Under the pieces are notes generated by a model that saw only the letters and a program-made list of their open reading frames with translations, did no database searches and was not told where the DNA came from. A DNA stretch of 36,291 nt from the NCBI GenBank assembly GCA_950097245.1, contig CATNCS010000019.1:1-36291 (forward strand), in the 5' to 3' direction. Origin of the DNA: an uncultured Oscillospiraceae bacterium. Its GTDB lineage: Bacteria; Bacillota; Clostridia; Oscillospirales; Oscillospiraceae. Below are positions 1,686-36,000 of this stretch, piece after piece. A program made the position numbers and the translations under genes. Position 1 is the stretch's first letter. Each line of letters begins with the position of its first letter.

Positions 1686-1748
1686 GTAGGGGCCGCCGCC
1701 CTCGGCGGCCCGTTTGCGATGCGGGGCGGCGAGGGCGCCGCCCCCTAC
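1686..1748. repeat. REP inverted pair A (between rpsB and tsf)
   Basis: Two GTAG-hairpin units face outward. The left unit is GTAG then GGGCCGCC / GGCGGCCC with loop GCCCTC. The right unit, on the opposite strand, pairs GGGGCGGC with GCCGCCCC around GAGGGC, the complement of the left loop, and ends CTAC. The pair will be transcribed in the rpsB-tsf message, where it could affect mRNA stability or the rpsB:tsf ratio (inference). Confidence 0.8.
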
Positions 1749-1766
1749 AAAATGTCTGTTGTTTTA

Positions 1767-2501
1767 TTATTCCGCAACGGCGGGAGCGGCCTCGGCCTCA
1801 GCGGCGGGGGCGGCGTCCTGGCCCTGGCGGCCCTCCTGGATGGCGTTGGCCATGACGGAGGAGATCAGCTTGATGGCGCGGATGGCGTCGTCGTTGCCGG
1901 GGATGACGTAGTCAATCTCGTCGGGGTCGCAGTTGGTGTCTACGATGGCCACGATGGGGATGTGGAGCTTGCGGGCCTCGTTGATGGCGTTGCGCTCCTT
2001 CCGGGGGTCCACCACGAACAGGGCGCCGGGGAGCTTGCGCATCTCGGTGACGCCGCCCAGGTACTTCTCCAGCTTGGCGATCTCGCCCATGTGCTTGATG
2101 ACTTCCTTCTTGGGCAGCATGTCGAAGGTGCCGTCCTCCTGCATCTTCTTCAGCTGGGCCAGACGCTCCACCCGGCCCCGCATGGTCTTAAAGTTGGTGA
2201 GCATACCGCCCAGCCAGCGGGCGTTCACCCAGTACATGCCCACGCGGCTGGCCTCTTCCTTGATGGCCTCCTGGGCCTGCTTCTTGGTGCCCACGAACAG
2301 CAGGGTCTCGCCCTTCTCCCCCAGGGAGCGGACGAAGTTGTAGGCCTCCTCCAGCTTCTTCACCGTCTTCTGGAGATCGATGATGTAGATCCCGTTGCGC
2401 TCGGTGTAAATGTAGGTGGCCATTTTGGGGTTCCACCGGCGGGTCTGGTGGCCGAAGTGGACCCCGGCCTCCAGCAGCTGCTTCATAGATACGACTGCCA
2501 T
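1767..2501 (-). CDS. rpsB: 30S ribosomal protein S2
   Basis: Ribosomal protein S2 sits on the head and body junction of the 30S subunit. The 244-residue protein begins [19 protein letters not shown] and contains the family blocks RRWNPKM, GTKKQAQ and RWLGGMLTN, then VDPRKE and VDTNCDPD. The length is typical, with an Ala/Glu-rich C-terminal tail. The start has a strong AGGAGG RBS. It is the first gene of the rpsB-tsf operon. A well-formed sigma-A promoter lies about 115 bp upstream, and the leader between has competing hairpins that could support autogenous control. Confidence 0.98.
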
Positions 2502-2551
2502 AGTTTGTTTCCTCCTGTTTTTCAGTTAGTCTTCTGGGGGCATCATGTCCT

Positions 2552-2592
2552 CCGCCAACCCGGTTTGCCCGGGCACCGGGCGGATGATCCGC
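2552..2592 (-). promoter_or_regulatory. Structured leader of rpsB mRNA, possible autoregulatory element
   Basis: In the transcribed leader, CCGCC (2552-2556) can pair with GGCGG (2579-2583), enclosing a second stem CCCGG / CCGGG (2559-2563 with 2569-2573). The same GCGG at 2580-2583 can instead pair with CCGC at 2589-2592 to make a small hairpin. The two folds exclude each other. S2 leaders are autoregulated in some bacteria; that this one is regulatory is inference from structure only. Confidence 0.35.
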
Positions 2593-2615
2593 ACTCCCAC
2601 GCATAATGCCTTGGT

Positions 2616-2644
2616 AGTATACCACAACTGTTTTTCTATTGCAA
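2616..2644 (-). promoter_or_regulatory. Sigma-A promoter of rpsB-tsf
   Basis: On the minus strand, a -35 TTGCAA (2639-2644) and a -10 TATACT (2616-2621) are separated by exactly 17 bp. Transcription should start near 2609, giving a leader of about 108 nt. Confidence 0.75.
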
Positions 2645-2742
2645 CAGTTTTTTCCTGATTTTCCGAAAAATATTCCGTGATATGCGTCTTTCGCCACAAG
2701 AAGCGTCCTTTCCGGTGGATTCTTTTGCCCCCGCCGCATAGA

Positions 2743-3306
2743 ATGGCAGGAGAGGGGGCGGAGACGTTGGAGGAGCGGCTGAACATGGGGGGCGGCGGGG
2801 TGCTGACCCTGCGGCAGGAGGGCCCGCAGGTACATATGAAAGCGGAGCGGCCGGCGGACGGGAAGGGGCTATATAAGGTGTGGCTCCACGGCGACCAGGG
2901 GGGCCAGCTGCTGCTTGGCACCCTGGTTCCGGAAAACGGGACTCTGCGGCTGGGCCGCACCCTGTCCGTCGGCGCCCTGGAGCGGGCGGGCTGCTGGCCC
3001 CGGTTCCGGGCGGAGGCGGTGCTGGCCTTCGCCTTCGGCGCGCCCTCCGGGGGGCGGTGGTACTGCGAGCAGCACCCGGACCAGCTGGTGGCCGACCCGG
3101 TGCTCCGGGCCCGGCTCCGGGGGGCCATGCTCTGCCGGAGAGGGGAGGAGGGCTTCTCCCTGTCCGCCCCCTTCCGCACCGACCGGCCCGTGTCCCTGGC
3201 CGCCCTGTTCTGTCTGGCCCGGGTGGAGCGCCGGGAGGGCCAGCTCCATATGGTCTGGGAATTTGATTCGGAGGGCAATCCAAAAGTTCCGCATAAGAAG
3301 GAATAA
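2743..3306 (+). CDS. Conserved-type hypothetical protein
   Basis: I do not recognise this as a named family. The product from the ATG at 2743 is 187 residues, soluble, without signal peptide or membrane segment, rich in Gly, Arg and Leu. It starts MAGEGAETLEERLN, followed by a segment alternating hydrophobic and charged residues (GVLTLRQEG, LYKVWLHG, LLLGTLVPENGTLRLGRTLSV) that reads like a beta-sheet domain. The start is uncertain. An in-frame ATG at 2677 lies further up, a TTG at 2767 has a purine-rich RBS, and an ATG at 2785 has the best RBS (GGAGGAG, 9 bp away). It lies divergent from rpsB and 58 bp upstream of a small gene and a CotF-like gene, so a sporulation link is possible but unproven. 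Confidence 0.6.
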   Translation: MAGEGAETLEERLNMGGGGVLTLRQEGPQVHMKAERPADGKGLYKVWLHGDQGGQLLLGTLVPENGTLRLGRTLSVGALERAGCWPRFRAEAVLAFAFGAPSGGRWYCEQHPDQLVADPVLRARLRGAMLCRRGEEGFSLSAPFRTDRPVSLAALFCLARVERREGQLHMVWEFDSEGNPKVPHKKE

Positions 3307-3364
3307 CTTGGACAGACTAACTGCCAGTAACGGAGAATTTCTCCGCTTGAAAGGAGGCAGTTTT

Positions 3365-3550
3365 ATGCCCAATCTCACCAGCAAGGAGCTCACCGCCCTG
3401 TCCGACCAGCTGGACTTCGAGCGGGTGCTTCACTGCAAGTACCTCTCCGCCGTCCAGGAGAGCCAGGACCAGGAGCTGAAGGACAAATTTCAGTCCTGCG
3501 CCAGCCTTCACCTGCAAAACTACAACACCCTGCTCACCCATCTGCGTTGA
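3365..3550 (+). CDS. Small 61-residue protein, companion of CotF-like coat gene
   Basis: A 61-residue protein (MPNLTSKELTALSDQLDFER...) with a strong AAAGGAGG RBS eight bases before the ATG. It is mostly helical in appearance, with a repeated pattern of Leu and charged residues and one HCKY motif, and ends in NTLLTHLR. It is followed 16 bp later by a CotF-family gene with its own RBS. In Clostridia CotF genes often come with a short helical partner of this kind, and the two are probably co-expressed during sporulation. Function is inferred only from that pairing. Confidence 0.72.
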   Translation: MPNLTSKELTALSDQLDFERVLHCKYLSAVQESQDQELKDKFQSCASLHLQNYNTLLTHLR

Positions 3551-3566
3551 CAAAGGAGGAACCGCC

Positions 3567-3824
3567 ATGAACGACCAGGAACGAATCACGGATTTTCTGT
3601 GCAGTGAGAAGAAGATGAGCGCCAACTACGACACCTTCGCCTCGGAGTGCGTCAACCTGTCCCTGCGGGACGACTTTCTCAACATCTTCAACCAGAGCCA
3701 CCAGACCCAGAGCGACCTGTTCAAGCTGGCCCAGTCCAAGGGCTGGTACCAGGTGGAGCAGGCCCCCCAGAGCAAGGTGAGCCAGGCCTACACCAGGTTC
3801 TCCAACCAGCAGCCCACGGCGTAA
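3567..3824 (+). CDS. Spore coat protein, CotF family
   Basis: An 85-residue CotF-type (PF07875-like) spore coat protein. The chain is helical, with DFLCSEKKMSANYDTFASE near residues 10-28 and the family-style ending SDLFKLAQSKGWYQVEQAPQ (GWY at about 59-61). These proteins are structural coat or ferritin-like helical-bundle proteins deposited on the forespore. A GGAGG RBS precedes the ATG. The upstream 61-residue gene and this one are tightly spaced and end at tandem terminators. Its presence argues that the host forms spores or descends from spore formers. Confidence 0.82.
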   Translation: MNDQERITDFLCSEKKMSANYDTFASECVNLSLRDDFLNIFNQSHQTQSDLFKLAQSKGWYQVEQAPQSKVSQAYTRFSNQQPTA

Positions 3825-3830
3825 TATACT

Positions 3831-3872
3831 CAGCGGGGGTTCTGCATCGGCAGAGCCCCCGCTGTCTCTCTT
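3831..3872 (+). terminator. Rho-independent terminator after the cotF-like gene
   Basis: A 14-bp stem (3832-3845 with 3850-3863, one G-T pair) with an ATCG loop is followed by GTCTCTCTT. It ends the small-gene/cotF unit. Confidence 0.75.
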
Positions 3873-3888
3873 GACGGATTATTCCTTC

Positions 3889-3910
3889 TCCCCCGGCGGG
3901 GGAATTTTTT
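3889..3910 (+). terminator. Second, backup terminator before convergent trxA
   Basis: TCCCCC / GGGGGA with a GGC loop is followed by ATTTTTT on the plus strand. It backs up the preceding terminator and overlaps the last codon of convergent trxA. Confidence 0.65.
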
Positions 3911-4220
3911 ACAGGTGCTCCTCCAGCACCTGGACAAAGGCGTCGGGGGGCATGACCCCCACCTTGCGGTCGATCTCCCTGCCGTCCTTGAAAAAGATGA
4001 CCGTGGGGATGCCGCTGACCTGGTAGCCCATGGCCAGCTCCGGCTCCTCGTCGGTGTTCACCTTGCCGATGACGGCCCTGCCCTCATATTGTTCCGCCAG
4101 GCTCTCAATCACCGGACCCAGCATCTGACAGGGACCGCACCACTCGGCCCAGAAGTCCACCATCATCAGCCCGCCCTCAGCCAGGGCCTTGTCAAAGGTC
4201 TCCTTGTTAAAATGAATCAT
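3909..4220 (-). CDS. trxA: Thioredoxin
   Basis: A small cytoplasmic dithiol-disulfide oxidoreductase. The 103-residue product contains the redox motif WCGPC (C28, C31) in the context VDFWAEWCGPCQ, the conserved GKVNTDEEPELA stretch, and the cis-proline loop SGIPTVIFFKDG. The length is standard. An upstream in-frame ATG at 4376 is rejected: the extension is Arg/Gly-rich and overlaps the reductase gene in another frame, whereas the ATG at 4220 has a GGAAGGAG RBS. It follows the thioredoxin reductase gene by 50 bp, so the two form an electron-transfer operon. A single REP hairpin sits between them. Confidence 0.96.
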   Translation of the reverse strand: MIHFNKETFDKALAEGGLMMVDFWAEWCGPCQMLGPVIESLAEQYEGRAVIGKVNTDEEPELAMGYQVSGIPTVIFFKDGREIDRKVGVMPPDAFVQVLEEHL

Positions 4221-4257
4221 TGCGCATTGCTCCTTCCTGTTTGTAAAATATTGTCCT

Positions 4258-4281
4258 GTAGGGGCGCATATCATGCGCCCG
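4258..4281 (+). repeat. Single REP unit B at the trxB stop codon
   Basis: GTAG followed by a perfect 8-bp stem GGGCGCAT / ATGCGCCC with loop ATC. The stop codon of the minus-strand reductase gene (complement of 4271-4273) lies in the loop and stem edge, so the last codons of that protein are written by the REP. Confidence 0.7.
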
Positions 4282-5131
4282 CGGGCGGATTCGCGTCCAG
4301 ATATTCGCAGGCGGACAGGGCGGCCACGTGGCCCTCTCCCACCGCCTTGGAAATCTGGAGCGGCCCGCCGGTGCAATCCCCGGCGGCAAAGACGCCGGCC
4401 ACATTGGTGGCCATCCGCCGGTCCACCCGGATAAACCCCTCCTCCGTCTCCAGGGCAGGGAGCAGGTCGGTGGGGGCCACCGCCCGGCGGAGGATGAACA
4501 CCCCGGCACAGGGGAGGAGGGCGCCGTCTGCCTCCAGCCCGGTGACGGTCTGTTCCCCCTTGACGGCCAGCTTTCCCGCCTGCACGCAGGGGATGTCCTT
4601 GTCCAGCCCCTCAGGCCGGAGGGGGGAGACGTAGGTCACCTGACAGCCAAGGGATCTCAGGTAGTTGGCCTCCTGGGGGGCGTCCGGGGCCAGGCCCACC
4701 ACAGCCACCGGCCGGTTCCGGTAGAGCATCCCGTCGCAGGTGGCGCAGTAGCTCACCCCCCGGCCCAGGTACTCCGCCTCGCCGGGGTACTTGGCGTTCC
4801 GGACCACCCCGGGGGCCAGAATCAGAGCCTTTCCCTGGCAGACCTGGCTGCCCACGGTGAGAGAAAAGCCCTTCCAGGCCAGCAGGGACAGCGCTTTGCC
4901 CACAACAAAGTCCGTCCCCAGGGCCTGCGCGTGGCGGACAAACTCCTCCAGCAGCTCCAGGCCCGTGCGTCCGGGGAGACCGGGGTAGTTGTCCACCCGC
5001 TCCGCCTTCGCCAGGGGGCTGTCCTGCCAGCGGCCGCCGATGACCAGAACGGACTTGTCCCGGCCCCGGGCGGCCACCGCCGCCGCCAGCCCCGCGGGGC
5101 CGGAGCCCAGCACCATAATATCGTAGCTCAT
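4271..5131 (-). CDS. trxB: Thioredoxin reductase-like flavoprotein lacking usual NADPH motifs
   Basis: An FAD enzyme that should reduce the adjacent thioredoxin. The 286-residue chain has an N-terminal FAD Rossmann motif GSGPAG (9-14), the redox pair CATC (129-132) in SYCATCDG, and the C-terminal FAD motif GVFAAGDCTGG (246-256). What is missing is the NADPH site: the usual GGGxSA is replaced by VVGLAPDAPQEA (144-155), and the HRRxxxR ribose-phosphate motif by VSPLRPEG. The chain is also shorter than the roughly 310-320 residues of NADPH enzymes. Clostridial ferredoxin-dependent flavin thioredoxin reductases (FFTR) show this kind of loss, so ferredoxin or an unknown donor is plausible. The C-terminus ends inside a REP hairpin. 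The ATG is preceded by GGGAGGG. Confidence 0.88.
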   Translation of the reverse strand: MSYDIMVLGSGPAGLAAAVAARGRDKSVLVIGGRWQDSPLAKAERVDNYPGLPGRTGLELLEEFVRHAQALGTDFVVGKALSLLAWKGFSLTVGSQVCQGKALILAPGVVRNAKYPGEAEYLGRGVSYCATCDGMLYRNRPVAVVGLAPDAPQEANYLRSLGCQVTYVSPLRPEGLDKDIPCVQAGKLAVKGEQTVTGLEADGALLPCAGVFILRRAVAPTDLLPALETEEGFIRVDRRMATNVAGVFAAGDCTGGPLQISKAVGEGHVAALSACEYLDANPPAGA

Positions 5132-5183
5132 ACCGTCCCTCCCTGTACCTGATTATCATGCCCCTTTTAGGGAAAAGCTTTCA

Positions 5184-5224
5184 TAAAAAGCCGGACGCGG
5201 CTCTCCATATCACAGGGAGTCCGG
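5184..5224 (-). terminator. Terminator of the SLH/hydrolase gene
   Basis: On the minus strand CCGGAC pairs with GTCCGG, with an inner TCC/GGA, followed by CTTTTTAT. It lies just after the stop of the gene at 5226-6302 and insulates it from trxB-trxA. Confidence 0.6.
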
Positions 5225-5225
5225 A

Positions 5226-6302: not shown

Positions 6303-6342
6303 CGGTCTGCTTCCTCCTTATATTCTGCTGGAATCAAGACCA

Positions 6343-6371
6343 AATATAGCACATTTTTTTGGAGATGGCAA
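6343..6371 (-). promoter_or_regulatory. Sigma-A promoter of the SLH/hydrolase gene
   Basis: Minus-strand -35 TTGCCA (6366-6371) and -10 TATATT (6343-6348) with a 17-bp spacer. An AGGAGG RBS follows before the ATG at 6302. Confidence 0.7.
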
Positions 6372-6386
6372 GGGAGAAGGAAATAC

Positions 6387-6415
6387 TTGCAAGACGGACG
6401 TTTCTGGTGTAAAAT
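6387..6415 (+). promoter_or_regulatory. Sigma-A promoter of glnS
   Basis: -35 TTGCAA (6387-6392), 17-bp spacer, -10 TAAAAT (6410-6415). The predicted start gives a leader of only about 23 nt, which leaves no room for a T-box riboswitch. Confidence 0.7.
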
Positions 6416-6444
6416 AACCCCATTGACAAAGGAGGAGAGAGCCC

Positions 6445-19346: not shown

Positions 19347-21329
19347 ATGGCACAGAAGAAAAACTACGGCAACGACTCCATCTCCGCCCTGAAGGGGGCC
19401 GACCGGGTGCGCAAGCGCCCGGGAGTTATCTTCGGCTCCGACGGGCTGGAGGGCTGCGAGCACGCCGTCTTTGAAATCATGTCCAACGCCATCGACGAGG
19501 CCCGGGAGGGCCACGGCTCTCTGATTACCGTCACCCGGTTTGAGGACGGCTCCATCCAGGTGGAGGACCAGGGCCGGGGCTGTCCGGTGGACTGGAATGA
19601 GAAGGAGCAGAAGTTCAACTGGGAGCTGGTCTTCTGCGAGCTCTACGCCGGCGGCAAGTACGACAACGAGGGCGGGGACAACTACGAGTACTCCCTGGGC
19701 CTCAACGGCCTGGGCTCCTGCGCCACCCAGTACGCCAGCGAGTTTATGGACGTCACCGTGTGGCGGGAGGGGAAAAAGTATTCCCTCCACTTCGAGAAGG
19801 GGGAGAACATCGGCGGGCTGAAATCCGAGCCCACCGACCGGGGCAAAAAGACGGGCACCACCATCCGCTGGAAGCCCGACCTGGAGGTGTTCACCGACAT
19901 CAGCATCCCGGTGGACTACTACCTGGACGTGATGAAGCGCCAGGCGGTGGTCAACGCCGGGGTGACCTTCCGGTTCCGGAACCAGGCGGGTGGAAAATTC
20001 GAGACCACCGACTTCCAGTATGAAAACGGCATTGTGGACTATGTCACCGAGCTGGCCGGAGAGGACGCCCTCACCACCCCGGTGTTCTGGCAGACCGAGC
20101 GGAAGGGCAAGGACCGGGCGGACAAGCCCGAGTACAAGGTGAAGCTGTCTGTCTCCTTCTGCTTCTCCAACAAGGTGCAGGTGGTGGAGCACTACCACAA
20201 CTCCTCCTGGCTGGAGCACGGCGGCTCCCCGGAGAAGGCCATGCGCTCCGCCTTCGTCTCCGCCATCGACGGCTGGCTCAAGGGGCAGAACAAGTACACC
20301 AAGGGTGAGAGCAAAATCACCTTCCCCGACATCCAGGACGCCCTGGTGCTGGTGAGCAACAACTTCTCTACCCAGACCTCCTACGAGAACCAGACCAAGA
20401 AGGCCATCAACAACAGGTTCGTCCAGGAGGCCATGACGGAATTTCTCCGGGCTCAGATGGAGGTCTACTTCATCGAAAACCCCGCCGACGCCCAGAAGAT
20501 CGCCGAGCAGGTTTTAATCAACAAGCGGGCCCGGGAGAACGCGGAAAAGACCCGGCTGAACATCAAAAAGAAGCTCACCGGCTCCATGGACATCTCCAAC
20601 CGGGTACAGAAGTTTGTCCCCTGCCGCACCCGGGACGTGAACCGCAGCGAGCTGTATATCGTGGAGGGCGACTCGGCTCTGGGCAGCGTGAAGCAGGCCC
20701 GGGACGGGGAGTTTCAGGCCATCATGCCCATCCGGGGCAAGATTCTCAACTGCCTTAAAGCGGACTACGGCAAAATCTTCAAGAGCGAGATCATCACCGA
20801 CCTGCTGAAGGTGCTGGGCTGCGGGGTGGAGGTCCACGACAAGCGGGCCAAGGACATGGCCGCCTTTGACCTCAGCGCCCTGCGGTGGAACAAAATCGTC
20901 ATCTGCACCGACGCCGACGTGGACGGCTTCCAGATCCGCACCCTGGTGCTCACCATGCTCTACCGCCTCACCCCCACCCTGATTCAGGAGGGGTACGTCT
21001 ATATCGCCGAGTCCCCCCTGTTCGAGATCACCTGCAAGGAGAAGACCTGGTTCGCCTACTCCAACAAGGAGAAGGACGACATTGTGGCCACCCTCCAGGG
21101 GAAAAAGTACGACGTCCAGCGCTCCAAGGGCCTGGGCGAGAACGAGCCGGAGATGATGTGGCTGACCACCATGTCCCCCGACACCCGGCGGCTCATCAAG
21201 GTGGTGCCCGAGGACATCGAACAGACCGCCCGGATGTTTGACCTCCTCCTGGGGGACGACCTCACCGGCCGAAAGAACCACATCGCCGACCACGGCCACG
21301 AGTTTTTGGAGCTGGCGGATATTTCGTAG
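19347..21329 (+). CDS. Type IIA DNA topoisomerase subunit B, divergent ParE/GyrB-like
   Basis: The ATPase subunit of a type II topoisomerase, 660 residues. The GHKL ATP site is present: E43 and N47 in VFEIMSNAIDEA, VEDQGRGC (73-80) and a modified lid GLNGLGS (119-125; usual GxHGVG). The transducer lysine is in ENQTKKAI (K352). The TOPRIM motifs are EGDSALGS (441-448; usual EGDSAGGS) and DADVDG (523-528). These departures place it outside standard gyrase and topoisomerase IV, so it is probably the extra clostridial pair. Its partner is at 22365. Unusually, two other genes separate the pair, one of them a RAYT transposase. Confidence 0.9.
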   Translation: MAQKKNYGNDSISALKGADRVRKRPGVIFGSDGLEGCEHAVFEIMSNAIDEAREGHGSLITVTRFEDGSIQVEDQGRGCPVDWNEKEQKFNWELVFCELYAGGKYDNEGGDNYEYSLGLNGLGSCATQYASEFMDVTVWREGKKYSLHFEKGENIGGLKSEPTDRGKKTGTTIRWKPDLEVFTDISIPVDYYLDVMKRQAVVNAGVTFRFRNQAGGKFETTDFQYENGIVDYVTELAGEDALTTPVFWQTERKGKDRADKPEYKVKLSVSFCFSNKVQVVEHYHNSSWLEHGGSPEKAMRSAFVSAIDGWLKGQNKYTKGESKITFPDIQDALVLVSNNFSTQTSYENQTKKAINNRFVQEAMTEFLRAQMEVYFIENPADAQKIAEQVLINKRARENAEKTRLNIKKKLTGSMDISNRVQKFVPCRTRDVNRSELYIVEGDSALGSVKQARDGEFQAIMPIRGKILNCLKADYGKIFKSEIITDLLKVLGCGVEVHDKRAKDMAAFDLSALRWNKIVICTDADVDGFQIRTLVLTMLYRLTPTLIQEGYVYIAESPLFEITCKEKTWFAYSNKEKDDIVATLQGKKYDVQRSKGLGENEPEMMWLTTMSPDTRRLIKVVPEDIEQTARMFDLLLGDDLTGRKNHIADHGHEFLELADIS

Positions 21330-21338
21330 GAGGCTGCA

Positions 21339-21767
21339 ATGAAAAAAAGAGTGCTTCCCATTCTCTGCGTTCTGCTTTTGGTCTCCACCGCCGTCTTCGC
21401 CGCGCTCTGGCGGCAGGAGGCGGCCCGGAACGAGGATACCCTGCGGCGGATGTGGCTTTCCGCGGCATCGTCGGGGGAGAGCATCGTAACAGAGTACCGG
21501 CAGGCCGGCTTGGAGATTCCATACTGTCAGGTTATCTCTGAGCTGCTGGTGATGGAGCGTGCCCTCCTATTGGCAGAGGGTACGGGACCGGACTACACCG
21601 ATTTAAATGCGGTTTACGGAATTTTGTCCCTGTACCCGGAGCGGTGCCCCGATGTGACAGAGGAGCTGCTCCTGGTCTTTCAGACCGCCTCTCAAGAGGA
21701 GCTGGACGGCTCAAATTGGCCTCTGCGGGTGAACGAACTGCGGAATATATTGGAGTATGGACGATGA
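21339..21767 (+). CDS. Membrane-anchored hypothetical protein
   Basis: A 142-residue protein with an N-terminal hydrophobic anchor (MKKRVLPILCVLLLVSTAVFA) and a helical exported region rich in Leu, Glu and Arg. No known domain is recognised. An AGGAGG RBS precedes the ATG, which lies nine bases after the topoisomerase B stop. Its stop overlaps the start of the RAYT gene as ATGA, suggesting translational coupling. It could be a cell-surface protein or a signal-anchored regulator; nothing in the sequence decides this. Confidence 0.72.
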   Translation: MKKRVLPILCVLLLVSTAVFAALWRQEAARNEDTLRRMWLSAASSGESIVTEYRQAGLEIPYCQVISELLVMERALLLAEGTGPDYTDLNAVYGILSLYPERCPDVTEELLLVFQTASQEELDGSNWPLRVNELRNILEYGR

Positions 21768-22390
21768 AGGAGGAACTGCGGACCCGAAAAGAAACCCGGC
21801 TGAAAAATTATGACTACAGCCAGGTGGGATATTATTTTGTCACGATTTGCACCCAGGTGCGGTATGAAAATATCCTGTGCGAAATTGTGCCTTTCTCTTG
21901 CGAACGGCCGGCCACAGAGGGTCGGCCCTACAGGGGTGCTGTTCCTTCGGTAGGGGGCGGCCTCTGTGCCGCCCCGCTTTCCCCAAACCGTGCCGCCCCG
22001 CTCCTCCAACCTATGGCATCTATCACATTAACAAGCTTAGGACAATTTGTTCACACTTCTATCAACCAAATCCCTGTTATAAATCCCGGCGTTTCTGTTG
22101 ATACCTACACAATCATGCCAGATCATATCCACATGGTCTTAAATCTGACGGGGCGGCACGGAGGCCGCCCCCTACCCAGCATTATTGGACGATTCAAGTC
22201 TTACACAGATCACTGCTATCGAAAAAACGGCTCTCCCCTCGGCCCGTACTTTTGGCAAGAGGGCTATCACGACCACATTATCCGCAACGACGCTGATTTA
22301 CAGGCAATTCGTGAATACATTCAAAACAATCCGCTCAAATGGATTTTAGATAGGACGGAAGCAAATGGCCAAGAAGAAAACGCCAAATGA
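21764..22390 (+). CDS. REP-associated tyrosine transposase (RAYT, IS200/Y1-like HUH nuclease)
   Basis: A 208-residue single-strand DNA nuclease of the Y1_Tnp/RAYT class, which in other bacteria cuts REP hairpins. The N-terminus has the family opener RLKNYDYSQVGYYFVTICTQ (12-31). The metal-binding HUH motif is MPDHIHMVL (H121, H123), and the catalytic tyrosine candidate is Y168 in WQEGYHDHIIR, followed by the RAYT-typical REYIQNNPLKW (183-193). The reading frame carries three REP hairpins, which encode residues about 48-73 and 129-138, so two surface loops are REP-derived. It overlaps the upstream gene by four bases and the topoisomerase A start by 26. Whether it is domesticated or still mobile is unknown; no terminal IS ends are visible. 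Confidence 0.9.
   Translation: MKEELRTRKETRLKNYDYSQVGYYFVTICTQVRYENILCEIVPFSCERPATEGRPYRGAVPSVGGGLCAAPLSPNRAAPLLQPMASITLTSLGQFVHTSINQIPVINPGVSVDTYTIMPDHIHMVLNLTGRHGGRPLPSIIGRFKSYTDHCYRKNGSPLGPYFWQEGYHDHIIRNDADLQAIREYIQNNPLKWILDRTEANGQEENAK
21906..21931 (-). repeat. REP unit C1 inside the RAYT gene
   Basis: Read on the minus strand it is GTAG then GGCCGACC / GGCCGGCC (one mismatch) with loop CTCTGT, the loop shared with copies C2, D and E. It is in frame within the transposase coding region. Confidence 0.65.
21950..21977 (+). repeat. REP unit C2 inside the RAYT gene
   Basis: GTAG followed by GGGGCGGC / GCCGCCCC with loop CTCTGT. It is almost identical to the left unit of element E at 30311. 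It encodes part of VGGGLCAAP in the transposase. Confidence 0.8.
22149..22175 (-). repeat. REP unit C3 inside the RAYT gene
   Basis: A reverse-oriented unit ending in CTAC, stem GGGGCGGC / GCCGCCCC around ACGGAG. With C2 it forms a split inverted pair about 170 bp apart that brackets the HUH motif of the gene. It encodes GRHGGRPLP. Confidence 0.75.
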
Positions 22391-24608
22391 AAACAAGAAG
22401 CGTGCCGCCGACCCCAACGTGATGGGTCTGCGGGCGGAGGTGCTGGAGCAGCCCATCACCCAGACCCTGGAGATCAACTACATGCCCTACGCCATGTCGG
22501 TCATCATCTCCCGGGCCATCCCGGAGATCGACGGCTTCAAGCCCTCCCACCGGAAGCTGCTGTACACCATGTATCAGATGAAGCTGCTGGGGGGCGGGCG
22601 GACCAAGTCGGCCAACATCGTGGGCCAGACCATGAAGCTCAACCCCCACGGGGACGCCGCCATCTACGACACCCTGGTCCGGCTCAGCCGGGGCTATGGG
22701 GCGCTGCTCCACCCCCTGGTGGACTCCAAGGGTAACTTCGGAAAGGTCTACTCCCGGGACATGGCCTACGCCGCCAGCCGGTACACCGAGGCCCGGCTGG
22801 ACCCCATCTGCGCCGAGCTGTTCCGGGACATCGACCAGGACACGGTGGACTTCGTGGACAACTACGACGGCAAGCTGAAGGAGCCCACCCTGCTGCCCAC
22901 CACCTTCCCAAACGTGCTGGTCTCCGCCAACAAGGGCATCGCCGTGGGCATGGCCAGCGACCTGTGCGGCTTCAATCTGGGGGAGGTGTGCGACACCACC
23001 ATCGCCTTTTTAAAGGACCCGAACCACGATATTATGTCAACTCTAAAGGCCCCCGACCTGCCCACCGGCGGCGAGCTGCTCTACGACGCGGCCGCCCTGG
23101 CGGACATCTACCGCACGGGCCGGGGCTCCTTCAAGGTGCGCTCCCGGTGGCGCTATGTGAAAGAGGAGAACCTCATCGAGGTCTATGAGATTCCCTACTC
23201 CACCACCTCTGAGGCCATCATCGACAAGGTGACCGAGCTGCTCAAGGCCGGGAAGCTGAAGGAGATCGCCGACATGCGGGACGAGACCGACCTGTCCGGC
23301 CTGAAGCTGACCATCGACCTGAAGCGGGGCACCGACCCGGAGAAGCTGATGGCCAAGCTCTTTAAAATGACCCCCCTGATGGACAGCCAGTCCTGCAACT
23401 TCAACATCCTCATCGCCGGCTTCCCCAAGGTGCTGGGGGTGCGGGAAATTCTGGAGGAGTGGACCGCCTGGCGGATGGACTCGGTGCGCCGCCGGGTATA
23501 CTTCTCCATGAACAAGAAGAAGGAGAAGCTGCACCTGTTAAAGGGCCTGCGGCGGATTCTCCTGGACATCGACCGTGCCATCCAGATCATCCGGGACACC
23601 GAGGAGGACGCCGAGGTCATCCCCAACCTGATGATCGGCTTTGGCATCGACCAGGTTCAGGCGGAATATGTGGCCGACATCCGGCTGCGGAACATCAACA
23701 AGGAGTACATCCTCAAGCGCACCCAGGAGGTAGACACGCTGGAGGATGAGATTGCCGACCTGGAGGACACTGTCAACTCTCCCAAGCGCATCCGGAAGAT
23801 CATCGTGGACGAGCTGGCCGAGGTCAAAAAGAAATACGCCGTCCCCCGGCGGACGGAAATTGTCTACGACCACATGGACGAGCCGGTGATGACGGTGGAG
23901 GACGAGACCCCCGACTACCCCGTCCACCTGTTCTTCTCTAAGGAGGGCTACCTCAAGAAGATTACCCCCCAGTCCCTGCGGATGGCCAGCGAACAGAAGT
24001 ACAAAGAGGGGGACGGCCCCTATCTCCAGTGGGAGGCCAATAACCGGGACGAGCTGTTGGTGTTTACCGACCGGCAGCAGTGCTACAAGACCCGGCTTTC
24101 TGACTTCGACGACACCAAGGCCAGCGCCCTGGGGGACTTCCTGCCCTCCAAGCTGGCCATGGACCCGGAGGAGAAGGCCCTGTGGGCCTGCCTGGCCGGG
24201 GACTACTCGGGCCACCTGCTCTTCTTCTTTGAGAACGGCAAGGCAGCCCGGGTGGAGCTGTCCGCCTATCAGACCCAGACCAGGCGGAAGAAGCTCACCG
24301 GGGCCTACTCGGACAAGTCGCCGCTGGTGGCCGCCTTCCTGCTGAAGGAGGACTTCGAGGCGGCGGTGGTCTCCACCGAGGGTCGGTGCGTGGTGTTCCA
24401 CACCGCCAGCCTCAACCCCAAGACCACCCGGAACACCCAGGGCGTCAATGTGATGACCCTGAAGCCCAAGTATAAGGTGGACAAGGTGCTGCCTCTGGAC
24501 CGCACCCACATCCAGAACGCCGCCCGCTACCGGGCCCGCTCCCTGCCCGTCGCCGGCGCCCTCCTGAGGGAGGAGGACCGGGGGGAGGAGCAGCTGACGC
24601 TGCTGTGA
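22365..24608 (+). CDS. Type IIA DNA topoisomerase subunit A, divergent ParC/GyrA-like
   Basis: The DNA-cleaving subunit partnering the gene at 19347, 747 residues. The catalytic tyrosine is Y140 in AASRYTEARL, and the winged-helix region has DGFKPSHRKLLYTM (57-70), close to gyrase and topoisomerase IV. The C-terminal beta-pinwheel region shows QTRRKKLTG but no GyrA-box (QRRGGKG), so DNA-wrapping gyrase activity is unlikely and decatenase-like action is more plausible. The chain is shorter than GyrA (about 820). The ATG overlaps the transposase stop by 26 bases, and its RBS (AGGACGGA) is modest, so its expression may depend on translation of the transposase frame. Confidence 0.9.
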   Translation: MAKKKTPNENKKRAADPNVMGLRAEVLEQPITQTLEINYMPYAMSVIISRAIPEIDGFKPSHRKLLYTMYQMKLLGGGRTKSANIVGQTMKLNPHGDAAIYDTLVRLSRGYGALLHPLVDSKGNFGKVYSRDMAYAASRYTEARLDPICAELFRDIDQDTVDFVDNYDGKLKEPTLLPTTFPNVLVSANKGIAVGMASDLCGFNLGEVCDTTIAFLKDPNHDIMSTLKAPDLPTGGELLYDAAALADIYRTGRGSFKVRSRWRYVKEENLIEVYEIPYSTTSEAIIDKVTELLKAGKLKEIADMRDETDLSGLKLTIDLKRGTDPEKLMAKLFKMTPLMDSQSCNFNILIAGFPKVLGVREILEEWTAWRMDSVRRRVYFSMNKKKEKLHLLKGLRRILLDIDRAIQIIRDTEEDAEVIPNLMIGFGIDQVQAEYVADIRLRNINKEYILKRTQEVDTLEDEIADLEDTVNSPKRIRKIIVDELAEVKKKYAVPRRTEIVYDHMDEPVMTVEDETPDYPVHLFFSKEGYLKKITPQSLRMASEQKYKEGDGPYLQWEANNRDELLVFTDRQQCYKTRLSDFDDTKASALGDFLPSKLAMDPEEKALWACLAGDYSGHLLFFFENGKAARVELSAYQTQTRRKKLTGAYSDKSPLVAAFLLKEDFEAAVVSTEGRCVVFHTASLNPKTTRNTQGVNVMTLKPKYKVDKVLPLDRTHIQNAARYRARSLPVAGALLREEDRGEEQLTLL

Positions 24609-26194: not shown

Positions 26195-26269
26195 GTAGGG
26201 GGCGGCCTCCGCGCCGCCCCGCTCTTTCAAAAGCGCTTACAATAAGGCGGCACAGAGGCCGCCCCCTAC
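26195..26269. repeat. REP inverted pair D
   Basis: Left unit GTAG plus GGGGCGGC-CTCCGC-GCCGCCCC; right unit GGCGGC-ACAGAG-GCCGCC ending CTAC. The two are about 20 bp apart, in the gap between the LUD gene and the following lipoprotein gene. Confidence 0.8.
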
Positions 26270-26285: not shown

Positions 26286-27368
26286 GTGAAAAGAACCCGT
26301 ATCACAGCAACCCTTTTGGCCTCCGCCCTCCTGCTGACGGGCTGCTCCGCCCTGCTGGAGCGGGACTACTCCTCCGTCACCCCCCACAATGCCGTCCCCG
26401 CGACAGAGGGAGACCCCTCCATCCTCCGGGCGGACAGCTATCAGGAGCTGGTCAACGCCCTGGTCTATCTGGTCAGCGGCGGCGTGGAGGAGGGGACGAT
26501 CCGCCTGTATACCGACACAGAAAACGTGGAGCCCTTTCTGGATAACGCCTGCCTGGAGGTGGTCCAGGAGGACCCCCTGGGGGCCTACTGCGTGGAGTTC
26601 ATCCGATACACGGTAAACCCGGTGGTCGCCTACTCCCAGGCGGACGTCCGCATCACCTACCGCCGCACCCGGGAACAGGTGGCCTCCATCGTCCAGGCCA
26701 CCGGTGTTACCGCCATCCGGGGCGAGCTGAAGTCGGCCCTCACCTCCTTCGCCCCGGAACGGGTGCTGCGCATCAGCTACTTTGAGGAGGACGAGGCCTT
26801 TATTCAGGACCTGGCCCGCCAGGCCTACTGCGACGTCCCCACCTTTGCCCTGGGGATGCCGGAGGTATCGGTGTCCATCTATCCCAGCACCGGGCGGCAG
26901 CGGATTGTGGAAATTCTGCTGGACTACCCTTTGGAGCGCGCTGAGCTGGAGGAGCGCCGGGGCAAGCTGGCCTGGGAGCTGCAGCTGCTGACCCGGGAGC
27001 TGGTGGGCGACGGCCAGCCCCCCCGGGTTCTGGACGCAGCCCGGGCCCTGCTGGAGAAGGGGGATTACGACCCGGAGGGGGGCGCCACCCCATACGACCT
27101 CTTCAGCACCGGATCGGCCAACAGCGAGGGACTGGCCCTGGCCTTTGCGGCCCTGTGCCAGGAGCTGGAGCTGCCCTGCCGGGTGGCCCAGGGCACCCTG
27201 GACCGGGAGCCCCGCCTCTGGAACGTGGTCCAGACCGGGGAGGGCTGGCGCCATCTGGATCTGTCCGCCCCGGCGGAGGAGGACATCCCGCTCTATACCG
27301 ACCAGGACCTTCAGGAGCTGGGCTATCTCTGGGAGGAGGGCTCCATCCCGGCCTGCCAGGCGCGGTAG
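26286..27368 (+). CDS. Lipoprotein with degenerate transglutaminase-like domain
   Basis: An exported lipoprotein of 360 residues. Lipobox LLTGC gives C20. The middle part has no recognised domain. Residues about 268-330 resemble the transglutaminase-like core (LALAFAALCQELELPCRVAQG ... LWNVVQ ... WRHLDLS), but the expected catalytic Cys is S280 (ANSEG) and the expected His of the HxWN motif is R310. D325 is retained. The protein is therefore probably a non-catalytic binding domain. The start is GTG with an AAGGAGGG RBS; REP pair D lies just upstream. Confidence 0.75.
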   Translation: MKRTRITATLLASALLLTGCSALLERDYSSVTPHNAVPATEGDPSILRADSYQELVNALVYLVSGGVEEGTIRLYTDTENVEPFLDNACLEVVQEDPLGAYCVEFIRYTVNPVVAYSQADVRITYRRTREQVASIVQATGVTAIRGELKSALTSFAPERVLRISYFEEDEAFIQDLARQAYCDVPTFALGMPEVSVSIYPSTGRQRIVEILLDYPLERAELEERRGKLAWELQLLTRELVGDGQPPRVLDAARALLEKGDYDPEGGATPYDLFSTGSANSEGLALAFAALCQELELPCRVAQGTLDREPRLWNVVQTGEGWRHLDLSAPAEEDIPLYTDQDLQELGYLWEEGSIPACQAR

Positions 27369-30304: not shown

Positions 30305-30310
30305 TATTCC

Positions 30311-30383
30311 GTAGGGGGCGGCCTCTGTGCCGCCCCGCTGCGGTATTTTGGAGAGTCGGGGCGGCGCAGAGGCCGCCCCCTAC
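30311..30383. repeat. REP inverted pair E
   Basis: Left unit GTAG plus GGGGCGGC-CTCTGT-GCCGCCCC; right unit GGGGCGGC-GCAGAG-GCCGCCCC ending CTAC. It is the most regular copy, six bases after the small gene's stop. Confidence 0.85.
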
Positions 30384-30440
30384 TGGCAGTTTGCCCCGCT
30401 TCTTTGGAAAAAATATGCTCCATTTCTCCCTTGTTATGGG

Positions 30441-30469: not shown

Positions 30470-30500
30470 AAAATATCATTGCTGCAATGGAGGAGACGTC

Positions 30501-31316: not shown

Positions 31317-31319
31317 GGA

Positions 31320-31435
31320 CCTCATCAGTCACCGCCTTTGGCGGCGCCAGCTTCCCCTAAAGGGGAAGCCTTTGGGGTACGTATTTTAGGCCTTCCCCTT
31401 TAGGGGAAGGTGCCCCCGAAGGGGGCGGATGAGGC
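31320..31435. repeat. Palindromic repeat family 2, inverted pair
   Basis: The left unit starts CCTCATCAGTC, has ACCGCC-TTT-GGCGG, and ends in CTTCCCC-TAAA-GGGGAAG. The right unit is the mirror copy (CCTTCCCC-TTTA-GGGGAAGG, CCCCCGAAGGGGG, ending GGATGAGG). The shared core and head match the single unit at 25520-25570. It fills most of the gap before the next gene. Confidence 0.75.
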
Positions 31436-31471
31436 CGTCCCCCCTACATCCAATTTACAAAGGAACTGCCC

Positions 31472-32986
31472 ATGAAACGATACCGTATTACCGCTTTTTT
31501 CCTTGCGCTCCTCCTGTCCCTGTCTGCCTGTGCGGGAGGCCCCGTCCCTGACCTGTCCGCCTCCTTTTCAGGAGGAGACGCCAGTCAGCCGGAGGACCCG
31601 CCCCAAAAGGCCCTCCCCTTCACCCTGGCTGTCTATCCGGAATACAGCCTCCACCCCGCTCTGGCCGGCAACCGGGCCAACCTGACACTGGCCCCCCTGC
31701 TCTATGAGAGCCTGTTCACGGTGGACGCCTCCTTCCAGGCCCGGCCGGTGCTGTGTCAGGGCTGGTCGGCCAGCGAGGACAAGCTGGTATGGACCTTTAC
31801 CCTCCACGCCGGGATTACCTTCTCCGACGGCACGCCCCTCACCGGCCAGGAGGCGGCTGACGCTCTGAACCTGGCCCGCTCCTCCGGGAGCCGGTACCGG
31901 GAGCGGCTGTCCGACATCACCGCTGTTACCGCCAGCCAGGAGGCCCCCTATCAGCTCACCATTACCCTCCGGCGGCCCAACGGCTCCCTGCCCCTGCTGC
32001 TGGACGTCCCCATCGCCCTGGGGGCGGATGACTGCCCCGCCGGCACCGGGCCCTATGTGCCGGCGGAGGACGGACTGTCTCTCACCGCCCGGAGCGGCTG
32101 GTGGCAGAAGAACAAGACCCTGCCGCTTCAGTCCATCCCGCTTCGGGCTGTCACCCGCAGCGACGAGCTGATCTACGACTTCGACTCCGGGGACATCTCC
32201 CTGGTGGACGTGGACCTGATGGCCACCAACGCCATGGGCTACGGGGGCAACTACCAGACCTGGGACTACCCCACCAGCGATTTTCTCTACCTGGGCTTCA
32301 ACACCCGGAGCGGGGTCTTCCGCACTGCCGCCGCCCGGCGGGCGGCCTGGCTGGCGGTGGACCGGGACGCTGTCGCCACCACCGTCTACTCCAACCACGC
32401 GATTTCCACCCTCCTTCCCGTCCATCCGGCCGGCGGGCTGTACCGGCCCGGCCCGGACTCTCTCACCTATGACCCGGAGGGGCTGGCCGCCAAAATGGAG
32501 GAGCTGCGGCTCCAGGGCAGCGAACTGGTGTTTCTGGTGAACAGCGAGAATGTGGCCAAGACCTCCGCCGCCCAGCTCATCGCCTATCAGCTGGAGGCGG
32601 CCGGGTTTGCCGTGGAGCTGAAGCAGCTCCCCTTTGAGGACTACACCGCCGCCCTGGCCGCAGGGGAGTTTGACCTGTACCTGGGGGAGACGGCCTTCAC
32701 CGCCGATTTCGACCTGGCCCCCCTGCTCTCCTCCACCGGCGCCCTCAACTACGGCGGCTGGTGGGCGGAGGGAGCCGACGCCCTCCTGGCCGCCATGCAG
32801 GGGGCCGCTCCGGAGGAGAAGCCCGTCCACGCCGAGGCGTTCTTTACCTTGTTCAGCGAACAGGTGCCCATTGTCCCCATCGCCTTTAAAAACGGCTCTG
32901 TCCTCACCCAGTGGGGCCAGCTGTCGGGGCTGTCGCCGGTGCGGGGCAATGTGTTTTACCAGATCGAAAATTGGACCGTTTCGTAG
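31472..32986 (+). CDS. ABC transporter substrate-binding lipoprotein (SBP_bac_5, peptide/nickel type)
   Basis: A 504-residue extracytoplasmic receptor. The signal peptide ends in lipobox LSAC (C20). The mature part has the family's opening block (LYESLFTVDASFQARPVLCQGWSAS), the HAGITFSDGTPLTGQEA signature and a C-terminal WTAGxx-like AFTADFDLAPLLSSTGALNYGGWW. Ligand is not evident; oligopeptide or nickel are the usual choices. No permease or ATPase is nearby, so it is an orphan or works with a distant system. Its TAG stop is the first part of a REP (GTAG), so its end is REP-derived. Confidence 0.92.
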   Translation: MKRYRITAFFLALLLSLSACAGGPVPDLSASFSGGDASQPEDPPQKALPFTLAVYPEYSLHPALAGNRANLTLAPLLYESLFTVDASFQARPVLCQGWSASEDKLVWTFTLHAGITFSDGTPLTGQEAADALNLARSSGSRYRERLSDITAVTASQEAPYQLTITLRRPNGSLPLLLDVPIALGADDCPAGTGPYVPAEDGLSLTARSGWWQKNKTLPLQSIPLRAVTRSDELIYDFDSGDISLVDVDLMATNAMGYGGNYQTWDYPTSDFLYLGFNTRSGVFRTAAARRAAWLAVDRDAVATTVYSNHAISTLLPVHPAGGLYRPGPDSLTYDPEGLAAKMEELRLQGSELVFLVNSENVAKTSAAQLIAYQLEAAGFAVELKQLPFEDYTAALAAGEFDLYLGETAFTADFDLAPLLSSTGALNYGGWWAEGADALLAAMQGAAPEEKPVHAEAFFTLFSEQVPIVPIAFKNGSVLTQWGQLSGLSPVRGNVFYQIENWTVS

Positions 32987-33049
32987 GGGCGGATATTATC
33001 TGCCCGTAAAGCCTGTCTGTCGAAACGGGCGGATGGTATCCGCCCCTAC
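32983..33049. repeat. REP inverted pair F
   Basis: Left unit GTAG plus GGGCGGAT-ATT-ATCTGCCC (one mispair); right unit GGGCGGAT-GGT-ATCCGCCC ending CTAC. The stems differ from the other copies but still pair. The TAG of the left head is the stop codon of the preceding gene. It ends just before the purL RBS. Confidence 0.8.
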
Positions 33050-33072
33050 AAATAAAGAGAAGGAGAAAGAAC

Positions 33073-36000
33073 ATGAGTGTTTACCGCTGTTTTTCCAAGA
33101 AAAAAGAGGGCTTCGATGTGGAGGCTCAGGGCCTGTGCAGGCAGCTGCGGGAGCAGCTGGGCATCGACGGGCTCCAGTCTGTCACGATCCTGAACCGGTA
33201 CGACGTGGAGCAGATTGATCGGGAGGTCTATGAGCGGGCCAAGGATATCGTCTTCTCCGAGCCCCAGGTGGATGTGGTCTACGACGAGGACTTCCCCATG
33301 CCCCGGATTGCGGGAGCCTTTTTCGCGGTGGAGGCCCTGCCGGGGCAGTTCGACCAGCGGGCGGACTCCGCCGCCCAGTGCATCCAGCTCATGGCGGGGG
33401 TAGACCGGCCCCTCATCGCCTACGCCAAGGTCTACTTCCTGGAGGGACACCTGTCTCAGGAGGAGCTGGACAAGATCAAAGGCTTCCTCATCAACCCGGT
33501 GGAGAGCCGGGAGGCCTCTCTGGACAAGCCGGAGACCCTGGTGCGGGAGCACGCCGCCCCCGACCGCGTGGATACAGTGGAAGGCTTTACCTCTATGGAT
33601 GACGGCGCCCTGTCCGCCCTTCTGGACAGGCTGGGGCTGGCCATGGACCTGGACGACCTGAAATTCCTGCAAACCTACTTCCGGGACGAGGAGGGACGGG
33701 ACCCCACCATCACCGAGGTCCGGGTGGTAGACACCTATTGGTCCGACCACTGCCGCCACACCACCTTCTCCACCCATCTGGACGACATTCAAATCGACGA
33801 CCCCGCCGTGAAGGCCGCCTATGAGCGGTATCTGGCCGCCCGGGTGGAGGTCTACGGCGAGGAGAAGGCCGCCCAGCGGCCCCAGACCTTGATGGACATC
33901 GCCACCATCGGCACCAAGGTGCTGAAAAAGCGGGGCCTGCTCCCCGAGCTGGACGAGAGCGAGGAGATCAACGCCTGCTCCATCCACGTTCCCGCCCAGG
34001 TGGACGGCGAGACCCAGGACTGGCTGCTCATGTTCAAGAACGAGACCCACAACCACCCCACCGAGATTGAGCCCTTCGGCGGCGCGGCCACCTGTATCGG
34101 CGGCTGCATCCGGGACCCCCTGTCCGGGCGGGTGTACGTCCATCAGGCCATGCGCTTTACCGGGGCCGGCGACCCCCGGGTCCCCTTTGACCAGACCCTG
34201 GAGGGCAAGCTGCCCCAGCGCAAGCTGTGCCAGACGGCGGCGGCGGGCTACTCCTCCTACGGCAACCAGATCGGCCTGGCCACCGGCCACGTGGCCGAGG
34301 TGTATCACGAGGGCTACATCGCCAAGCGGCTGGAGTGCGGCGCCGTGGTGGGCGCGGCCCCGGCGGAGAACGTGCGCCGGGAGCGGCCCGCGCCCGGGGA
34401 CGTGGTCATCCTCCTGGGCGGCCGCACCGGTCGGGACGGCATCGGCGGGGCCACCGGCTCCTCCAAGAGCCACAACAAGAAGTCGCTGACCACCATGGCC
34501 TCCGAGGTCCAGAAGGGCAACGCCCCCGAGGAGCGGAAGATTCAGCGGCTGTTCAGGGACGGGGAGGTCACCCGGCTCATCAAGCGGTGCAACGACTTCG
34601 GGGCCGGGGGCGTCAGCGTCGCCATCGGCGAGCTGGCCGACGGGCTGGAGATCGACCTGGACGCGGTGCGCAAGAAATACGACGGTCTGGACGGCACCGA
34701 GCTGGCCATCTCCGAGAGCCAGGAGCGGATGGCGGTGGTGGTGGCCCCCGAGGACGAGGCCCAGTTCATCGCCGCCGCCGAGAAGGAGAACCTGGAGGCC
34801 TACCGGGTGGCTACCGTCACCGAGAGCCCCCGGATGGTGATGCACTGGAAGGGGCAGAAGATTGCCAACCTGTCCCGGGCGTTCCTCAACACCAACGGCG
34901 CGGTGAAGCACGCCAGAGCTCATGTAGGGGGCGCCGCCCTCGGCGCCCCGCATACCTGCCCCGAGCCCAACGGGCCGGCGAGGGCGCCGGCCCCTACATT
35001 GCGGGAAATGGCCTCCAGCCTGAAATGCGCCTCCCGGCGGGGGCTGACGGAGCGGTTTGACAGCACTGTAGGGGCGGGGTCCGTCCTTATGCCCTTCGGC
35101 GGCAGGTATCAGGCCACCCCTGCCCAGGCGATGGCCGCCCTGCTGCCCGTCCTGCCCGGCCAGGAGACCGACCAGGCCAGCGTCATGGCCTGGGGCTGCG
35201 ACCCGGACGCCCTGTCCGTCGACCCCTACCAGGGGGCCTACAAGGCAGTGACCACCTCTATTGCCAAGCTGGTGGCCGCAGGGGCGGATTATAAGAAGGT
35301 CTACCTCACCTTGCAGGAGTTCTTTGAGAAGCTCCGGGACGAGCCCGTCCGCTGGGGCAAGCCCGCCGCCGCCCTGCTGGGGGCGCTGTCCGCCCAGCTG
35401 GACTATGGCGCCGCCGCCATCGGCGGAAAGGACTCCATGTCCGGCTCCTTCCTGGACAAGGACGTGCCCCCCACGCTGATCTCCTTCGCCATCGCGCCCA
35501 TCAAGGCTGGGGAAGTGATTACCCCCGAGTTTAAGGAGGCGGGACACGCCGTATATCTCTTCTATGGCGGCGATACAGCGGAGGAACAGAGGACCGCTTG
35601 GGAAGAGTTTGAGGTGTTCCGCGAAAAAGGAGAGGTCAAAGCCGCATGGGCAGTTGAAAACAGTCTGGAAGAGGCTGTTATGAAGATGTCCTTCGGCAAC
35701 CGGATCGGCTTTACTTTGAGTGGCGGAGGAAAGCTCTGGTCAAAGCCTTTGCCCGGCGCAATCGTAGCAGAGCTGACAGTAGACCTCGGAAACGAGTGGC
35801 ACTGGTTTAAAATCGGAGAGACTACCGCCGATCCGGTGATTGACTTGGGCAACGGCGACTCTGCCGCCATCGACGAGCTGCTCAAGCTCAACGAGGGCGT
35901 GCTGGAGGAGGTCTACCCCACGAAGGCGGGAACCTGTGAGGAAGTGCAGACCATCTCCTGGGACAAGCGCTCCCCCGCTGTCTGCAAGCACAAGGTGGCC

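Follow-up and report, generated by a model that had tools for sequence, protein, structure and literature searches.

The question of how a transposase gene present in a single copy keeps a lasting match with many short palindromes dispersed through its genome is raised here by a contig of an uncultured Oscillospiraceae gut bacterium (CATNCS010000019.1, assembly GCA_950097245.1), of which a stretch of 36,291 nt (the window) was analysed. The window encodes a transposase associated with repetitive extragenic palindromic (REP) sequences, i.e., a REP-associated Y1/HUH transposase (RAYT), and carries 14 REP units, three of which lie inside the RAYT gene itself, a rarer feature that a first-pass annotation of the window had missed. 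Most sampled clostridial RAYT genes hold two REPs of the same family, one + and one -, in two fixed loops flanking the HUH codons. The overall explanation proposed here, which is probably correct, assigns the system to the tnpA-REP subclass 2.4 type of REP/RAYT systems and takes the transposase gene to contain the enzyme's own substrate. On the sequence evidence, it can be taken as established that the units are genuine and fall into families, that the gene holds an internal pair conserved at the DNA level, and that in the genomes examined this pair matches a dispersed family.

The RAYT gene occupies 21764..22390 on the + strand and encodes 208 residues. The earlier assignment of this gene holds, since the product matches Pfam Y1_Tnp (1.1e-9) and the best fold match of its predicted structure is 4er8, E. 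coli TnpA-REP with a bound REP hairpin. The mean predicted local distance difference test score (pLDDT) of the model is 80. The NCBIfam equivalog model REP_Tyr_transpos (NF047646) gives 61.7 bits, below a cut-off of 80 that belongs to the model and is no defining trait of the RAYT class, and its best stretch covers residues 110-192 only, past the first of the two REP-bearing loops (site 1). H121, H123 and Y185 are invariant across 57 aligned RAYT rows (alignment A6), and from its place Y185 would be the catalytic tyrosine. In addition, the protein has an FWQ motif and R174, putative counterparts of W94, Q95 and R104, the residues that contact GTAG in E. coli; Q165 and R174 are present in at least 90% of the 57 rows. 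The profile search detected no other intact RAYT in the assembly.

Two of the internal units form an outward-facing pair 174 nt apart, with the HUH codons in between. The site-1 REP (21950..21975, +) lies in an inter-strand loop before these codons and is read GTA GGG (Val-Gly), while the site-2 REP (22150..22175, -) lies past the HUH strand, ahead of the helix that follows; in both, GTAG is followed by GGG/CCC, giving three G-C pairs at the stem base. The third internal REP (21906..21931, -), which has one stem mismatch, is an extra unit in the site-1 loop, and all three are translated within the RAYT frame. The counterpart of the extra unit is perfect in the related loci L032 and L033 and missing from L034, and this distribution points to its insertion into the site-1 loop.

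According to the main text of PMC6006769, in-frame REPs inside tnpA-REP genes are unique to subclass 2.4, where they generally lie between HUH and Y. The same text equates this subclass with RAYT group 4 of Bertels et al. 2017 and places it in several phyla, so the earlier remark that such systems are described mostly in Proteobacteria needs qualifying. REPs no more than 1 kb from the gene are also reported there for the large majority of the genes of subclasses 2.2, 2.4, 2.5, 2.7 and 2.8, a usual rather than a strictly defining trait. The present system shares with subclass 2.4, as described in that text, the REPs in the gene, the kept frame, the GT[AG]G foot, the three G-C pairs at the stem base and the HUH-Y insertion; by such features (the in-frame REP between HUH and Y and the stem base), it is a REP/RAYT system of the subclass 2.4 (RAYT group 4) type. 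It differs in that the published insertions are "generally" at site 2, whereas here a second fixed site before HUH holds an inverted, matched partner. In the main texts of the literature searched, no description of the two-site pair or of RAYTs in topoisomerase operons was found, and as far as these texts show, the two-site inverted pair would be a new variant of the published in-frame REPs.

Other known systems are more distant. The REPs of E. coli TnpA-REP (subclass 2.2, 4er8) are described as flanking the gene and bulged, while those studied here lie inside the open reading frame (ORF) and are mostly perfect palindromes. The REPtron of Stenotrophomonas maltophilia (group 3, PMC8266576) has a 23-nt REP with an 8-bp perfect stem and a 3-nt loop, like one of the families in the window, but a description of internal REPs was not found in the main text of that report. 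Intragenic REPs and Rickettsia palindromic elements (main text of PMC3733652) are likewise palindromes translated in frame; they reside in unrelated genes, e.g., uvrA, whereas here fixed sites in the gene of the presumed mobilising enzyme are occupied.

A contig scan yielded 80 relatives, classed by record titles as 53 clostridial and 27 other loci. Among the clostridial loci, site 1 holds a + REP in 44 and site 2 a - REP in 39, with both in 36 and none in five. Site 1 is occupied in none of the 27 non-clostridial loci; their site-2 hairpin is - in 20 and + in 18, often one palindrome read both ways, and six have none. This site-2-only pattern outside Clostridia fits the published subclass 2.4. 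Meanwhile, 100 genomes of the window's family were profiled with the RAYT profile A3, which detected a RAYT (E under 1e-10) in 28; in the 40 scorable genes out of 45 from family genomes, site 1 is + in 27 and site 2 is - in 25, with both in 21 and none in seven. The pooled non-redundant set comprises 88 clostridial RAYT genes, in which site 1 is + in 67 (against - in 3) and site 2 is - in 61 (against + in 4), both are present in 54, none is scored in 11, and a decayed partner within an edit distance of 3 is found in eight further genes. Hairpins number 1.57 per gene, compared with 0.002 in codon-shuffled genes; their density over all 81 loci, at equal thresholds inside and outside, is 3.3 per kb in the RAYT genes versus 0.16 in the flanks (3.05 versus 0.12 at another threshold). 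These counts exclude L192, L196, L202 and L203, in which HUH was not matched by the pattern, the partial L204 and six near-duplicates, and smaller RAYT fragments of the profile search were left out of the gene set; L192 and L196 carry both REPs. Two loci have unusual layouts: L078 carries a reversed pair (- before HUH, + after), and the usual orientation is not absolute; site 2 of L201 holds three consecutive - REPs, suggesting that the loop can grow by repeated insertion.

The two REPs of one gene are far more alike than REPs of different genes. Within a gene they are 96.5% identical (0.965), compared with 0.677 ± 0.013 for shuffled partners (n 54), and in gene pairs with 30-50% core identity, REPs agree at 0.65-0.67 between genes, no better than shuffled, versus 0.96 within a gene. 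For instance, L046 and L052 of Ruminococcus flavefaciens share 78% of the core, while their stems differ, both copies being altered alike. Third codon positions agree at 0.902 inside REPs and 0.557 outside in 35 gene pairs with core identity of at least 60% (the pairs share genes); between the window and L033, 16/16 agree inside REPs and 0.61 outside. Stem differences between the copies of a gene occur in nine of 53 genes with copies of equal length (L037, of unequal length, was left out), and 10 of the 11 base pairs concerned are compensated, an outcome that the scan favours but does not force, as it tolerates one mismatch per stem. Since these compensations fall within each hairpin, it is suggested that the hairpins are conserved and not a duplex between the sites. 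The cognate internal pair is thus very probably kept as DNA.

The internal REPs also match what is dispersed in the genome. A whole-genome model search gave at least 151 matches to REP model R1 in the window's own genome (G000; 150 of 12190 candidates scored). Among the 150 matches listed, neighbours less than 100 nt apart are outward-facing in 36 cases, inward-facing in 4 and on the same strand in 2, and the earlier view of a REP/RAYT system, a RAYT with genome-wide REPs that often form outward pairs, is upheld. For the family with a CTCYGY loop, the one matched by the internal REPs of the window RAYT, G000 holds 60 exact copies, and none occurs in the remaining 99 family genomes, a set that includes 27 with a RAYT. 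In the ten genomes of named loci, exact copies number 6 (L032), 47 (L033), 2 (L034), 3 (L035), 2 (L039) and 0 (the other five). Colidextribacter sp. OB.20, with a RAYT of the same class, is the genome among these with 47. The two in L034's genome are the REPs inside its own RAYT, a seed-like case; R2 matches of any family number 10 in this genome. Similarly, 82 copies of the G014 internal REP occur in G014 and 0 in 31 other genomes, including the RAYT-less sister G078; four G078 places inspected hold REPs of other families, one of them also present in G014, and on this small look the family matching the G014 RAYT is the one absent from the RAYT-less sister. Flanking REPs at least 90% like the locus's own internal REP number 59, where 0.33 would be expected from other loci (66 loci with an internal REP).

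Across the 100 family genomes, the median number of R2/R3 matches is 39 in the 28 genomes with a RAYT and 0 in the 72 without; since no genome had more than 77 (R2) or 80 (R3) candidates scored, high counts are floors. At least five matches occur in 24/28 genomes with a RAYT and in 11/72 without (Mann-Whitney p 7e-11, the genomes not being independent). The first-pass annotation had named equal copy numbers in related genomes with no RAYT as a refuting outcome; instead, copy number follows RAYT presence, with exceptions both ways. Pfam Y1_Tnp was abandoned as a means of counting RAYTs, to which it gives weak scores and from which it does not separate IS200 elements; ten genomes whose A3 matches were weak (E 1e-7 to 1e-3) count here as RAYT-less, their Pfam Y1_Tnp matches (at most 2e-12) being taken as IS200-type. 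At least 20 matches are present in 6/72 RAYT-less genomes, so REPs can persist after, or exist without, a detected RAYT. When the 11 RAYT-less genomes with at least five REP matches were searched again loosely (E up to 10), three of them gave four weak matches in all; such genomes could reflect loss of the RAYT, incomplete assembly or activity in trans. In G014, L215 and L216 carry REPs from two families that point the same way at an 81-nt offset, which recurs between other matches, a composite unlike the usual REPIN (outward REP pair).

Ongoing recognition by the RAYT likely keeps internal and dispersed REPs cognate. With binding and nicking next to GTAG hairpins by E. coli and Stenotrophomonas TnpA-REP as the model, the RAYT would bind single-stranded GTAG hairpins, nick beside them and thereby spread REPINs. 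Cleavage beside such hairpins has been reported for proteins of E. coli, Stenotrophomonas and Marinomonas (main text of PMC8266576); reports of cleavage by subclass 2.4 proteins were not found in the main texts searched. If one protein recognises both internal REPs, the pair would stay cognate, and gene transfer or a swap into the locus would bring the enzyme and seed copies of its substrate together, after which a new dispersed family may grow and the old one would be left behind to decay. Enzyme and target appear to be inherited, altered and exchanged together. That such an enzyme-plus-substrate cassette is the reason for the kept pair is tentative, with somewhat less than an even chance; the pair may serve as seed, as autoregulator or only as a tolerated insertion. 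The internal pair hints at which family a RAYT serves and can be read from the gene alone, which offers a simple route to assigning REP families to RAYTs in Clostridia and allows cognate specificity, the turnover of families and the replacement of alleles to be tested on many natural pairs.

Several observations weigh against a substrate-carrying gene. The internal pair is common, not essential: 10 of the 88 genes are without a hairpin (the 11 scored as none include L045, so scored for want of a recognised HUH, yet with three hairpins), 12 have one site only and no partner within three edits (although in two of these, L107 and L111, the nearest partner is still closer than any shuffle), and three have another arrangement. 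One stem difference, in L068, is uncompensated, the eight decayed partners bear uncompensated or foot changes, and the scan tolerates at most one stem mismatch, which biases the paired set towards good hairpins. An own-like REP is found in the flanks at just 22/66 loci. Among RAYT-less genomes, G021, G032 and G078 are rich in REPs and eight others have at least five matches; G001, G045, G054 and G061 have a RAYT but 0 to 4 matches. The dispersed copies of L034's genome may simply have been lost. Finally, continuous homogenisation without any function could give the same conservation.

That last possibility belongs to a reading in which REPs enter two permissive loops of the RAYT since the enzyme's own gene is the first it encounters, continued copying from one REP to another maintains their likeness, and neither gene nor host has any use for them. 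Both sites are loops in the predicted model, where residues 55-73, the site-1 stretch, have pLDDT < 50. Site-1 loops acquire extra units (the window, L032 and L033 compared with L034), as does site 2 of L201 with its row of three - units, some internal copies decay, and in-frame REPs in unrelated genes are on record in the main text of PMC3733652. The orientation bias, 67:3 and 61:4, is harder to accommodate, even though it is inherited and the cases are not independent; at site 1, moreover, the - orientation would be easier to read through, as + has a TAG in one frame. In L034's genome, the internal pair is intact with no exact dispersed copy to serve as template. Passive tolerance with homogenisation is possible but rather unlikely.

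A second alternative is autoregulation, in which expression of the gene would be damped through its internal REPs, either by the RAYT or by a long mRNA duplex of the two copies. Continuous selection of this kind would account for the third-position conservation, and RNAfold pairs site 1 with site 2 (at least 15 bp) in 49/54 genes. However, this pairing follows from the copies being inverted repeats, and the long duplex was rejected as the kept feature, as 10/11 stem differences are compensated inside the hairpin. On balance, autoregulation is unlikely.

The 14 units of the window bear on a third alternative, an ordinary REPtron in which the single RAYT made and recognises all of them. The units are genuine and far above chance: the hairpin scan recovers every one of the 14 reported at first pass, and its four further matches, at 26569, 26808, 31421 and 35221 (18 in total), are weak. 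Scores of at least 8 are reached by 11 matches, all among the 14, whereas 20 first-order Markov sequences of window length gave 0 at score 8 and a mean of 2.35 at any score. The layout comprises five outward-facing pairs, one lone unit and the three units inside the RAYT ORF. The six inverted pairs claimed earlier come down to these five, since the supposed sixth, 21906-/21950+, faces inward and the outward pair at that place is 21950+/22150-. Stems were said to be almost all exact; most are, with imperfect ones at 21906, 26244 and 32983.

By stem and loop, these units fall into at least three families. The 26-nt CTCYGY-loop family supplies the REPINs at 26195..26269 (26195-26220+ and 26244-26269-, scan start 26245, the end of the second stem being decayed) and at 30311..30383 (30311-30336+ and 30358-30383-). 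The 26-nt GCCCTC-loop family supplies those at 1686..1748 (1686-1711+ and 1723-1748-) and 34924..34997 (34924-34949+ and 34972-34997-), and the 23-nt family with a 3-nt loop supplies one at 32983..33049 (32983-33005+ and 33027-33049-) and the lone + REP at 4258..4280. Because of these families, one RAYT is probably not the maker of all 14 units. In the same assembly there is, moreover, a second RAYT, L171 (G000:C9:36224-36701), split over two frames with the break at the foot of its site-2 REP; its site 1 carries a 23-nt REP whose hairpin recurs at site 2, and with the window RAYT it means that G000 has had at least two RAYTs. The 23-nt units of the window are nearer in form to the internal REP of L171. 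The profile search found no cognate RAYT for the GCCCTC family in the G000 assembly. In a comparison with IS200/IS605, the RAYT locus is the same in related genomes, and the assembly holds one intact and one broken RAYT.

An ordinary REPtron would agree with the closeness of RAYT and REPs and with the tracking of RAYT presence by copy number. It is quite unlikely in view of the several families, the broken RAYT with a different internal REP and eight GTGG-footed copies in G000; in addition, a scan of GTAG feet only found no REP within 1 kb outside the RAYT gene in the window. The earlier claim that this RAYT made the elements finds support for the CTCYGY family alone.

That the REP-encoded peptides themselves matter, with the loops as protein parts, e.g., for REP recognition, is very unlikely: site-1 + REPs share one frame (Val-Gly...) in 40/44 cases among the 53 clostridial loci, but site-2 - REPs there are read in three (33, 6 and 1), the site-1 loop is predicted at low confidence, in a model in the main text of PMC6006769 the insertion of subclass 2.4 lies apart from the DNA site, and REPs kept only as peptide code were rejected on the higher conservation of third positions inside REPs than outside.

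The exchange of enzyme and target together, as expected if the gene carries its own substrate, has a candidate example at this very locus. Upstream of the RAYT lie the B subunit of a type IIA topoisomerase (ParE/GyrB-like; 19347..21329, +), which falls below the cut-offs of all matched NCBIfam models, and a 142-residue ORF (21339..21767, +) without Pfam or NCBIfam match. Downstream lies the A subunit (ParC/GyrA-like; 22365..24608, +), whose first 26 nt (22365-22390) are shared, in a different frame, with the RAYT 3' end, and because of this overlap L032-L035 have a common RAYT tail. L035, from a close relative, has flanking genes like those of the window, with 389/408 aligned bases upstream of the RAYT (window 21301-21709) and topoisomerase subunits alike at 97% (B) and 95% (A) of residues. 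Its RAYT body, in contrast, agrees at 30-62% of bases per 60-column block over 21798-22257 and at 77-100% from 22258 on. It has GTGG-footed internal REPs and groups on the tree with L038 of Oscillibacter. Outside the RAYT gene, G000 has 58 CTCYGY and 8 GTGG copies, compared with 3 and 9 in L035's genome (Fisher p 2e-5, copies not independent). The simplest reading would be replacement of the gene body, with the family of the resident allele dominant and the earlier family as a residue. The eight GTGG-footed REPs of G000 correspond to the RAYT type of L035 and L038, a type that was not found in this assembly; they are possible relics of a replaced allele.

It may further be proposed that the Oscillospirales RAYT is a REPIN embedded in a transposase ORF, its halves forced to be cognate, that a horizontal swap changes enzyme specificity together with the substrate, giving rise to a new dispersed family, and that it sits in topoisomerase operons of at least two lineages; this fuller proposal is speculative and more doubtful than not. 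If true, a cassette in type IIA topoisomerase operons could tie to supercoiling or decatenation. E. coli REPs are gyrase sites according to work cited in the main text of PMC6006769, which makes the topoisomerase link worth testing. A topoisomerase B or A subunit lies within 3 kb of the RAYT in 21/99 loci: ten have the parE-RAYT-parC-like order, which belongs to one lineage (the window, L032-L035, L037-L039, L041 and L051, with L209 as an additional case), ten have the RAYT before a gyrB-like gene, and L109 has the A subunit only. The ten of the second kind, upstream of gyrB-gyrA-like genes in Ruminococcus flavefaciens, are L042, L043, L046, L050, L052, L053, L057, L064, L066 and L070; in L057, the A subunit is further away. 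On the tree, with 66 unlabelled rows omitted, each topoisomerase group needs one change, but L209 stands apart from the other parE-C rows; the events are few.

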